From: Prevotella sp.
Lineage (GTDB): Bacteria; Bacteroidota; Bacteroidia; Bacteroidales; Bacteroidaceae
Assembly (NCBI GenBank): GCA_018385335.1
Contig: JAHAZN010000052.1
Coordinates: forward strand, 1 to 64,000
Length of the DNA stretch: 64,000 nucleotides
Direction: 5' to 3'
The notes below the pieces were generated by a model. The model was given only the letters and a program-made list of their open reading frames with translations. It was not told the DNA's origin and did not search any database. Of the stretch, positions 17,586 to 21,666 are shown piece by piece. Position 1 is the first letter of the stretch. The number at the start of each line of letters is the position of its first letter. The position numbers and the translations under genes are program-made.

Positions 17586-18428
17586 CTATCTTCCCTTAAT
17601 AAAATAGGTCATCATGTCAAAAGGCAATCCCTCTACCTGTGTTGCCGGTGCCCTGTTGAACTCTCCCGATGGGTTGATGACATAAACCTTCTGCAGATAA
17701 CGTCGCAGTTCGCTCACCATCCATTCGCGCTCAGGCACCTCTCCCATGAGATGCAGTTCGTCGAGTTCCGTCTTCAGTGCCAGCTGTTGCCACACATTGA
17801 GAATAAAATAGATAGCATCGTTGCAGCAGGCATGGAGGCTCCCACTGTGAGTGAGAGAGAAGGCGTTGGCAAACTTAAACCTGTTCTGAGAGAAACAGAA
17901 GATGTCAACCTTATCATCATGAAAATAAGCATAGAGCTTGTTGAATATGGTGGCGAAGTTACGCTGATAAAGGTAACGCCATACGGGGCAGAGCACATTC
18001 ATAAACTGTGCCGAGGGATAGCGGTCGGTGATCACAGTATATAGGTCTTTGTTGATCATGTATGCCGCCACCGTCTTCAGGTCGGGGATGATGGTGTGCA
18101 ACACCCTGCCCCCTTCAGTGTCGGGGAAGGTATAGCGATAGTGGAGCGCCACCTCATCCTCAGAGAAGAGTGAGATGGGTTCGAGGAGCACATCGCTGTC
18201 AACCATCACCATCACGCGCTGATAGTCAGCTGTTGTGAGTTCAGAGGTCTTGAAGGCTTCGCGCAGATTAGCAGCCACCGATATGCCACTCTTCAGCTGA
18301 TAGGGCTCATGGGTAATCAGCATCTTCCCTTCGTCAAAGGTGAGGGAAGAGAACGATAGCGAATGGGCGCTCGTACGGATGGTCAGACGTGATGAGGCTG
18401 ACGGCTTGACGGATACTGTTGTTGACAT
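17586..18428 (-). CDS. DUF3822 family protein
   Basis: Position adjacent to rsmD and sequence character; start taken at MSTTVSVKPSASSRL instead of ORF start 18587. Confidence 0.75.
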   Translation of the reverse strand: MSTTVSVKPSASSRLTIRTSAHSLSFSSLTFDEGKMLITHEPYQLKSGISVAANLREAFKTSELTTADYQRVMVMVDSDVLLEPISLFSEDEVALHYRYTFPDTEGGRVLHTIIPDLKTVAAYMINKDLYTVITDRYPSAQFMNVLCPVWRYLYQRNFATIFNKLYAYFHDDKVDIFCFSQNRFKFANAFSLTHSGSLHACCNDAIYFILNVWQQLALKTELDELHLMGEVPEREWMVSELRRYLQKVYVINPSGEFNRAPATQVEGLPFDMMTYFIKGR

Positions 18429-18602
18429 GATATGTGATATAATTTCCTGCAAAATTAGTGTTTCTTGCAGAATATTCCAAATAATCTGGTGAAAAGGTGG
18501 ATAACCACCCATGTTCACCTCCTCTCGTCCCCTTGACAGGTGAGGAATAGCCACCGATACCCCTACTTTTTGCTGATGAGCATGCAAAAATGAGCATTAT
18601 TT

Positions 18603-18632
18603 TTTGATTTTCCCAAAAAATGACTAATTTTG
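18603..18632 (+). promoter_or_regulatory. Candidate corA promoter
   Basis: TTTG-N18-TAATTTTG (spacing slightly short of the 19-21 norm). Confidence 0.45.
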
Positions 18633-18696
18633 CACGCTGATAGCGGGCTGCTCCCCTGCTGGAGGGTCCCAAGATGTTTCATCAATTTAATTCACT

Positions 18697-18738
18697 ATGG
18701 ACGATTATCACGCGGAGAACTATTACGAGTTGGCGTGA
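18697..18738 (+). CDS. Putative corA leader peptide uORF MDDYHAENYYELA
   Basis: ATG GAC GAT TAT CAC GCG GAG AAC TAT TAC GAG TTG GCG TGA upstream of corA; 4 of 13 residues acidic; an overlapping 33-codon uORF lies at 18674..18775. Confidence 0.4.
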   Translation: MDDYHAENYYELA

Positions 18739-18797
18739 GGATGGCATAGAAGACCAATCCTCGTGCCTGGAATAATTATTTTCAAAACAGGATTGGT
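18732..18797 (+). promoter_or_regulatory. Candidate attenuator-like RNA leader of corA
   Basis: Two mutually exclusive stems: 18732-18742/18757-18767 (11 bp incl. 2 GU) and 18753-18761/18789-18797 (9 bp perfect, ends 3 nt before corA ATG). Confidence 0.5.
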
Positions 18798-18800
18798 ACA

Positions 18801-19727
18801 ATGAGAACATATTGGAATACTACCGGTGGGCTGAAGATGATAGACCAATGGCAGCCCAACTGTTGGATACAGGTCACCTGTCCAACAGACGAAGATCAGG
18901 AATTGCTCGAAAAGCAGTTTGATATCCCCGACTATTTTTTCTCCGACGTGAGCGATACCGACGAGCGTGCACGTTATGAATATGACGATGGATGGATGCT
19001 CATCATCTTGCGTATCCCCTATGTCAAGGAGATAAGGTCGAGAACGCCCTATACCACCGTGCCCCTCGGCATAATACACAAGCGTGATGTCACCATTACA
19101 GTGTGCTATTACGAGACCAACATGATGATTGATTTCCTGAGCTTCCAGCAAAAGAGAGGCGAGGGATTCACCGACCATGTGGATATGATCTTCCGTCTGT
19201 TCTTATCCTCGGCAGTGTGGTATCTGAAACGACTCAAGCAGATAAGTACGCTGATAGAGAAGGCGAAACGTAATCTCGACAAGGAGGTGAACAACGAGAG
19301 CCTCATCGGTCTGAGCCGCCTGCAGGACTCGCTCACCTATTTCATCACCTCTATCCGTGGCAATGAGAACCTCCTGTCGAAGCTGAAGTTCAAGCTCCAG
19401 ATCGACGAGTTGGATGCCGACCTTATCGAGGATGTCAATATCGAGATGACTCAGGCGAGAGAGACCACCAACATCTATTCCAACATTCTTGAATCGACCA
19501 TGGACACCTATTCGAGCATCATCAATAACAACATGAACACAGTGATGCGTACGCTCACCTCTGTATCCATTCTTATGATGTTCCCCACGCTGATAGCCAG
19601 TCTCTTTGGTATGAACCTCGTCAACGGCATGGAGACAAGTCCCTTCGGATTTGCCGTTGCGCTGTTTATATCTGTGGCAGTGTCTGGTCTCTTTTGGTGG
19701 GTTTTCAGACATAAACGTCTCATTTAG
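18801..19727 (+). CDS. corA: CorA family magnesium/divalent cation transporter
   Basis: C-terminal two TM helices with GMN signature (ASLFGMNLVNGM). Confidence 0.93.
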   Translation: MRTYWNTTGGLKMIDQWQPNCWIQVTCPTDEDQELLEKQFDIPDYFFSDVSDTDERARYEYDDGWMLIILRIPYVKEIRSRTPYTTVPLGIIHKRDVTITVCYYETNMMIDFLSFQQKRGEGFTDHVDMIFRLFLSSAVWYLKRLKQISTLIEKAKRNLDKEVNNESLIGLSRLQDSLTYFITSIRGNENLLSKLKFKLQIDELDADLIEDVNIEMTQARETTNIYSNILESTMDTYSSIINNNMNTVMRTLTSVSILMMFPTLIASLFGMNLVNGMETSPFGFAVALFISVAVSGLFWWVFRHKRLI

Positions 19728-19848
19728 AGCAGAAAAACAAAAAAAAATGATGAATAACGGCGCACTTTGACTTTTTTTTACTAAGTTTGTGCCGTCAATA
19801 GAATGACATACCATACATAAATATTTGAACCAAACAAACATTATTACA

Positions 19849-21666
19849 ATGGACTCTCAAGAAAAGGCTCCTGAAATGGGCATGGAAAAACTGCAGGCTG
19901 AGGCTGTGCAGGAGGAACAGGTTGTCAACGAACCCCAGCAGGTTGTGGCCGATGAAGTGAAGGAAAAGAAAGTGTATGCCTCAAAGAAAGAGGTCGTAGA
20001 GCGCGTAAAAGAAATCGCACATGGCGAAGAGAATCCTCAGAAAGAAGAGGTGGACTATCTCAAGATGATGTTCTACAAACTCCTTGTTACCGAGAGGGAG
20101 GCAACACTCAAAGACTATATAGAGAAAGGTGGAGACCCTGAGACCTATCAGGTGATACCCGATGAGGATGAGGAGGTGTTTAAGGCTGAGATGGCGGTCA
20201 TCAAGGAGCGTCGTGCACAGCTCTTCAAACAGCAGGAAGAGGAGAAGGAGAAGAATCTGAAGAGAAAACTTGAGATCATCGAGCGCATCAAGTCGATGAT
20301 TACCTCACCCGAAGAAGCTAATCAGTCATTCCAGGAGTTTAAAGCACTCCAGCAGGAATGGAAAGAGATAAAGAATGTGCCCGCTCCTCAGGTGAGTGAG
20401 CTGTGGCGCAATTATCAGCTCTATGTGGAGCAGTTCTATGACCTCCTGAAGCTCAATAGCGAGGCGCGTGAATACGACTTCAAGAAAAACCTGGAGACGA
20501 AGACTCGTCTGTGCGAGGCTGCTGAGAAGTTGGCAGAGCAGGACGACCTCATCAGTGCTTTCTACCAGTTGCAGGAGTTGCATCAGGAGTATCGTGAGAC
20601 CGGTCCTGTTGCAAAGGAGATGAGAGAGGAGATTTGGGCACGTTTCAAGGCTGCCTCTACCGTTATCAACAAGCGTCATCAGCAGTATTTTGAACAGCTC
20701 AGAGCCAAGGAGGAAGAGAATCTTGTCAAGAAGACCGAACTCTGTGAGAAGGCTGAGGCTCTCCTTGCTGAAGAGCGAAAAGGGTCGGCAGACTGGGAAC
20801 GTCATACCAAGGAGATGATTGAGATACAGACGGAATGGAAGACCATTGGCTTCGCTCCACAGAAGATGAACGTGAAGATCTTTGAGCGCTTCCGTGCTGC
20901 CTGCGATAGCTTCTTCGAGAAGAAGGCTGCCTATTTCAAAGAACTCAAGGAGAACTTCAAGATCAATGCAGAGAAGAAACGTGCGCTCATTGCCAAGGCC
21001 AACGAGTTGAAGGACAGTCAGGAGTGGCGTTCTACCTCAGATAAACTCATTGCCCTGCAGAAAGAGTGGAAGACCATCGGTGCCGTGCCTAAGAAGCTTG
21101 GTGACCAGCTGTGGGAGGAGTTTCTTGCTGCCTGCAACCATTTCTTCGAGGCACGCAATGCTGTTGGTGCCGGACAGCGCTCTGAAGAGCACGGCAACTT
21201 AGAGAAGAAACGTGATGTGATAGCACGTCTCAAGGCACTCCAGGAGTCGGCAGCAGACAATCTGCAGGAGGCTGTTCAGCAACTTGTGGATGAGTATGGT
21301 CAGATTGGTCATGTGCCTTTCAAAGAGAAGGATAAGCTCTATGCTGAATACCATGAGACGCTGAATGCGCTCTACAGAACACTCAATGTCAACGTGGCTA
21401 AACGCCGTTTGAACAACTTCAAAAACAAACTGAAGACGGTGGCTGAGCAGGGTGGAAATGCCTTGGACAACGAGCGTGCTCGTCTCGTGCGTCACTATGA
21501 GACACTGAAGCAAGAGGTGCAGACCTATGAGAATAACCTTTGTTTCCTCAGTGTGAGCAGCAAGAAGGGCAACAGTCTGATAGATGAGATGAACCGTAAA
21601 GTGCAGAAGTTGAAGGATGACATGAACCTTGTGCTCGAGAAGATTAAGGCGATAGACAATCAATAA
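19849..21666 (+). CDS. DUF349 domain-containing protein
   Basis: Repeated LxEWKxIGxxPxKxxxxLWxxFxxAxxxFF units. Confidence 0.92.
   Translation: MDSQEKAPEMGMEKLQAEAVQEEQVVNEPQQVVADEVKEKKVYASKKEVVERVKEIAHGEENPQKEEVDYLKMMFYKLLVTEREATLKDYIEKGGDPETYQVIPDEDEEVFKAEMAVIKERRAQLFKQQEEEKEKNLKRKLEIIERIKSMITSPEEANQSFQEFKALQQEWKEIKNVPAPQVSELWRNYQLYVEQFYDLLKLNSEAREYDFKKNLETKTRLCEAAEKLAEQDDLISAFYQLQELHQEYRETGPVAKEMREEIWARFKAASTVINKRHQQYFEQLRAKEEENLVKKTELCEKAEALLAEERKGSADWERHTKEMIEIQTEWKTIGFAPQKMNVKIFERFRAACDSFFEKKAAYFKELKENFKINAEKKRALIAKANELKDSQEWRSTSDKLIALQKEWKTIGAVPKKLGDQLWEEFLAACNHFFEARNAVGAGQRSEEHGNLEKKRDVIARLKALQESAADNLQEAVQQLVDEYGQIGHVPFKEKDKLYAEYHETLNALYRTLNVNVAKRRLNNFKNKLKTVAEQGGNALDNERARLVRHYETLKQEVQTYENNLCFLSVSSKKGNSLIDEMNRKVQKLKDDMNLVLEKIKAIDNQ

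Follow-up and report, generated by a model that had tools for sequence, protein, structure and literature searches.

A conserved leader with a short upstream open reading frame (uORF) and two alternative RNA stems precedes the Mg2+ channel gene corA across much of the class Bacteroidia. It probably acts in cis as a ribosome-operated translational attenuator, in which the failure of ribosomes at two early aspartate codons at low Mg2+ would raise the production of CorA. The element was studied in the window, the complete 64,000-nt stretch of a Prevotella sp. contig analyzed here, and in the corA upstream regions of relatives. The anatomy of the putative switch is well supported by comparative data: a leader peptide starting with Met-Asp-Asp (MDD), a segment A at its stop codon that pairs with a segment B, and a segment C before the corA ATG with which B can pair instead (Table 1). 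On this evidence, the uORF and both pairings exceed chance, because all three are conserved and the pairings covary. From the target gene and the likeness to MgtL and MgtQ, we infer that Mg2+ is the signal, sensed via abortive translation of the uORF.

Table 1. Features of the corA locus; positions are counted from the first nucleotide of the window
Feature	Position	Strand	Details
DUF3822 gene (PF12864)	17586-18425	-	divergent neighbor of corA
Bacteroidota-type -7 promoter box (TAnnTTTG)	18625-18632	+	TAATTTTG; assigned by sequence
uORF, putative leader peptide	18697-18738	+	MDDYHAENYYELA*, 13 codons; MDD... in 180 of 217 corA loci
Segment A	18732-18742	+	GGCGTGAGGAT; contains the uORF stop codon; its duplex with B is the anti-sequester stem
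Segment B	18753-18767	+	18757-18767 (ATCCTCGTGCC) pairs with A, 18753-18761 (ACCAATCCT) with C; mutually exclusive
Segment C	18789-18797	+	AGGATTGGT; directly 5' of the corA ATG; its duplex with B is the sequester stem
corA, Mg2+ channel, 308 aa	18801-19727	+	PF01544, E 7.5e-48, 163.8 bits
Multi-domain DUF349 gene (PF03993)	19825-21666	+	downstream neighbor of corA

The corA gene is the single CorA match in this assembly (91 % complete). Upstream of it, the first-pass annotation had described the promoter box, the 13-codon uORF with its stop codon in the 5' arm of an 11-bp stem including two GU pairs, and a second, perfect stem of 9 bp that shares part of the 3' arm of the first and stops 3 nt short of the corA ATG. 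All of these elements were found in the sequence, with every coordinate correct to the base; the stop codon of the uORF, TGA (18736-18738), falls within the 5' arm of the A:B stem. A 33-codon ORF (18674-18775) that had been described as overlapping the uORF exists as well, but it was rejected as a coding sequence: it lies in the +1 frame of the uORF, which is unconstrained (pN/pS 1.37), and it is not conserved.

Of 122 mutually dissimilar leaders, 115 have a TAnnTTTG box in the 100 nt preceding the uORF, compared to 6 expected. Because the box usually lies 25-31 nt from the uORF ATG, in most species the corA transcript is expected to begin some 20 nt 5' of the uORF. In the window the distance is 64 nt; the region from 18633 to 18696 thus holds about 35 nt more than the usual spacing, and these GC-rich extra nucleotides may fold. 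Similarity of the promoter region to other places in the genus was attributed to shared promoter-like sequence; one of these places lies in front of an unrelated gene, and the matches within the genome itself were short and weak.

The collection of corA upstream regions comprised 217 loci, with a few species represented twice: the genus contributed 90, the remaining genera of the family 79, further families of the Bacteroidales 29 and the rest of the phylum 19. A short ORF starting with MDD was located 5' of corA in 88, 70, 18 and 4 of these loci, respectively. The last four all belong to one family of the same class, and apart from them an MDD-type ORF was not found at the distant CorA genes elsewhere in the phylum (19 loci). 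In three further Bacteroidales loci, MDD is replaced by MDE (MDEGPYHSRINY, MDEGPRYRKIKL, MDEVPDYRQIKY), which keeps the charge. Carriers of the leader include the named strains Xylanibacter brevis ATCC 19188 (L073), Hoylesella marshii DSM 16973 (L031) and H. loescheii DSM 19665 (L058). Conservation of uORF and stems in relatives had been set in advance as a test, and the peptide, the promoter box and both stems turned out to be kept through the Bacteroidaceae and beyond.

Within the genus, codons 2-8 of the uORF showed a pN/pS of 0.245 in frame versus 1.37 and 1.11 when read in the two alternative frames; judged by this substitution pattern, the uORF evolves as a protein. Tyr occupies position 4 in 84 % of the cases and an acidic residue position 7 in 70 %, and the Asp-Asp start is often followed by Pro or Glu, whereby the invariance of Asp2-Asp3 in the detected set arises partly by construction from the search pattern (ATGGA[CT]GA[CT]). 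After residue 8, both sequence and length are variable, resulting in peptides of 8-27 residues in total. Codon usage points to a constraint at the nucleotide level at codon 2 on top of the peptide constraint, since 121 of 122 leaders use GAC for Asp2 (18700-18702 in the window), while the Asp3 codon is either GAT or GAC.

The two stems were evaluated by partner swapping, in which the duplex energy of a leader's own segments is compared with that of segments exchanged between leaders. For the 122 mutually dissimilar leaders this yielded z = -20.6 for B:C and z = -16.0 for A:B, compared to z = +0.2 for the control A:C; kinship among leaders can inflate swap and covariation tests, but with the control being flat, relatedness is an unlikely cause of this signal. 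The effect was seen within the genus (B:C z = -10.9, A:B z = -8.5), outside of it (B:C z = -14.0, A:B z = -12.0) and for 27 distant leaders alone (B:C z = -9.3, A:B z = -6.1, A:C z = -0.3). The mutually exclusive arrangement of the hairpins, as initially proposed, was also recovered: one B segment is used in both duplexes in 89 % of the 122 leaders.

For B:C, an alignment of 36 sequences revealed changes on both sides at 8 of 10 pairs, with 85.8 % of the cells pairing and a covariation score matched by 0 of 500 shuffles. Shifting the partners by one base reduced pairing to 40-52 %. In most leaders the A helix is centered near the uORF stop despite the different lengths of the uORF, and this placement at the stop codon is conserved. 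Covariation had been suggested as a check by the first-pass annotation, and both alternative stems, of which B:C is predicted to lie over the corA start region, covary and are well supported as mutually exclusive structures. Folding of single sequences alone gave a modest signal (z = -2.1), and RNAalifold on the genus alignment recovered no more than part of B:C, since the position of A follows that of the variable stop codon and loop lengths differ, which is why partner swapping was used in its place. A fourth segment, formed by the 5' part of the uORF pairing with A, was rejected (z = -2.0 and thus weak in the genus, z = +0.2 elsewhere); the pairing of TCACGC with GCGTGA, which corresponds to this segment, is present in the minimum-energy fold of the window.

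According to the proposed mechanism, a ribosome reading the uORF to its stop codon would cover A and leave B free to pair with C, so that corA is shut. At low Mg2+, by analogy with known leader peptides, the Asp-Asp start, often together with the following Pro or Glu, would destabilize the ribosome and cause early failure in the uORF; A:B could then form, C would be free and corA translated. The CorA produced would let Mg2+ rise until the uORF is completed again and B:C re-forms. Early acidic residues are known to make E. coli ribosomes pause or dissociate (PMC11282234), and Asp2 and Glu5 of Salmonella mgtQ act as such early-acidic destabilizers on a Mg2+ transporter gene (PMC8092293); this destabilization by the nascent chain is known from ribosomes of E. 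coli, and the host here belongs to the Bacteroidia.

We modeled the effect of a translating ribosome by constrained equilibrium folding without kinetics, using a ribosome-sized mask of 29 nt. In this model, the accessibility of the corA start was lowest with the mask at the uORF stop (0.323, compared to 0.395 at codon 4; p = 3e-9), which is a small mean effect, and it climbed when the mask was shifted in either direction. The respective values for the window were 0.22 and 0.44. Because the minimum lies at the uORF stop, the model predicts that a completed uORF should shut corA and that early failure should open it. Intrinsic transcription termination as the read-out was rejected, as a terminator-like site is absent from 18550-18900, and the read-out is therefore most simply translational. 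The same absence, together with the lack of a codon run beyond Asp-Asp, speaks against an amino-acid attenuator of the trp/his type.

A strict version of the uORF pattern matched 48 times in 151 genomes of the family, once per genome and always beside corA. In this strict form at least, the sequence data identify the element as a corA device and speak against a wider regulon. A pattern for the whole order that included the start codons of corA as well proved too strict, with matches in 2 genomes. The locus closest by CorA identity (95 %) has corA without the uORF leader (L002:1050-1500), and this corA follows the apparent 3' end of another gene; from its sequence, either a rearrangement removed the leader or the metagenome-assembled genome is misassembled. 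Four other loci from a few genera of the family (L155, L156, L201, L202) likewise have corA without an MDD uORF. As all five carry corA without it, the leader appears to be dispensable.

The anatomy of the switch does not specify its signal. The same uORF-run A/B/C switch could thus respond to something other than Mg2+ as such, for instance to translation stress, polyamines, another divalent cation or the availability of an EttA-like ABC-F protein or of bL31, any of which would set how often ribosomes fail at Asp-Asp. In enteric bacteria, EttA and bL31 do modulate how acidic leader peptides are translated (PMC11282234, PMC8092293), but the occurrence of the uORF pattern beside corA only points to a signal concerning the CorA substrate, and we consider such another signal unlikely, with a small but real chance of being correct. 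If instead the RNA itself bound Mg2+ and B changed its partner in response, the uORF would be incidental or serve for tuning only. Mg2+ riboswitches are a known class, and alternative structures of similar energy do lie over the corA start; however, the most conserved sequence consists of the uORF codons, which are conserved as protein, a compact conserved aptamer core was not seen in the alignment, and an Rfam match is absent, all of which makes a riboswitch highly improbable. At the gathering threshold, Rfam reported two tRNAs only in the whole window, and the matches in 18560-18860 were no better than chance; a known RNA family, including the known Mg2+ riboswitches, was rejected on this basis.

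Shine-Dalgarno (SD) sequences are rarely used in Bacteroidia. Ribosomes of this class sequester the anti-SD (PMC9976891), and a GGAGG before corA is thus odd. Of the 122 leaders, 61 have it within the 20 nt that precede the corA ATG (e.g. L146-L152, AAAGGAGGCAATAAG), compared to 1 of 40 ORFs of the window, which form the entire background of this comparison. The motif may be only the partner of B or a true SD. In the latter case, corA could be a rare SD gene read by ribosomes with a free anti-SD, e.g. those without bS21, with B:C gating the SD, similar to Flavobacterium, where ribosomes without bS21 read the SD-bearing rpsU (PMC9976891). Half of the leaders, including the one in the window, lack GGAGG, however, the purine tract may merely be the pairing partner of B, and the conserved uORF would be left unexplained; we therefore see very little room for selective initiation. 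The purifying selection on codons 2-8 would also suit a functional micro-protein acting in trans, e.g. on CorA. Given its 8-27 residues, its variable C-terminus and an arm A that overlaps or abuts the stop codon and so ties the end of the peptide to the RNA switch, a role of this kind is extremely improbable.

The attenuator reading, in which early ribosome failure at Asp-Asp opens corA, has a broader implication: Bacteroidia may possess their own, independently evolved Mg2+ gauge, consisting of an Asp-Asp leader peptide and a three-segment switch over the corA start, a view for and against which we see the balance as even. If true, destabilization by the nascent chain would be a widespread bacterial way of sensing Mg2+ rather than an enterobacterial specialty, and leader-peptide control of Mg2+ uptake would extend from Enterobacteria to a dominant gut lineage. 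The element makes the idea of acidic nascent-chain ribosome destabilization as a general Mg2+ sensor testable in bacteria whose ribosomes mostly ignore SD sequences, and it may provide Bacteroides genetics with a compact, native control part that responds to cations.

Judged from sequence, the corA leader has the features of a translational attenuator, namely a uORF conserved as protein and exclusive stems, one of them predicted to occlude the start, and those of the MgtL/MgtQ type, namely acidic residues after the start (Asp2, then Asp3, or Glu3 in some families) and a Mg2+ transporter gene as target. In Enterobacteria, MgtL and CorL control mgtA and corA by uORFs and Rho-dependent termination (PMC11552253). 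CorL and the gammaproteobacterial corA motif resemble our element in the corA family gene, the leader uORF, the two RNA states and an inverse relation between corL translation and corA (PMC11552253, PMC6429828), which is the direction proposed here. In contrast, CorL has a UUG start, is poor in acidic and proline residues and acts through Rho (PMC11552253, PMC6429828), and the corA motif is reported in Gammaproteobacteria only (PMC6429828). With a uORF that begins ATG GAC GAY, encodes MDD and was seen in the class Bacteroidia only, the element described here falls outside the definition of both.

MgtL of mgtA in Salmonella and E. coli has acidic and proline residues after the start (EPDP), to which DD with the frequent Pro or Glu is the counterpart, and completion of its uORF represses the Mg2+ transporter gene (PMC11282234, PMC11552253), as proposed for corA. 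It differs in acting through Rho-dependent transcription termination and the mgtA leader structure (PMC11282234, PMC11552253), whereas the stems of the corA leader sit on the corA start codon and a terminator was not found. The closest known system in mode of action is mgtQ, located upstream of mgtB in Salmonella. There, too, acidic codons come early in a short uORF (Asp2, Glu5), one of the alternative stem-loops occludes the ribosome binding site of a Mg2+ transporter gene, control is exerted on translation, and the translation of the uORF and the downstream gene are inversely related (PMC8092293), the last of which we propose for corA as well. In contrast to the promoter-proximal corA leader, which occurs across a bacterial class and is predicted to regulate corA, mgtQ lies between mgtC and mgtB in a PhoP-controlled Salmonella operon, regulates MgtB and has four numbered segments instead of three (PMC8092293). 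The first-pass annotation knew of no counterpart in Bacteroidota, and a search of the open-access literature found no description of the element in this phylum either. We therefore regard it as a novel variant of the leader-peptide control known from mgtQ and MgtL, where the likeness is one of mode of action and implies no claim of common descent.
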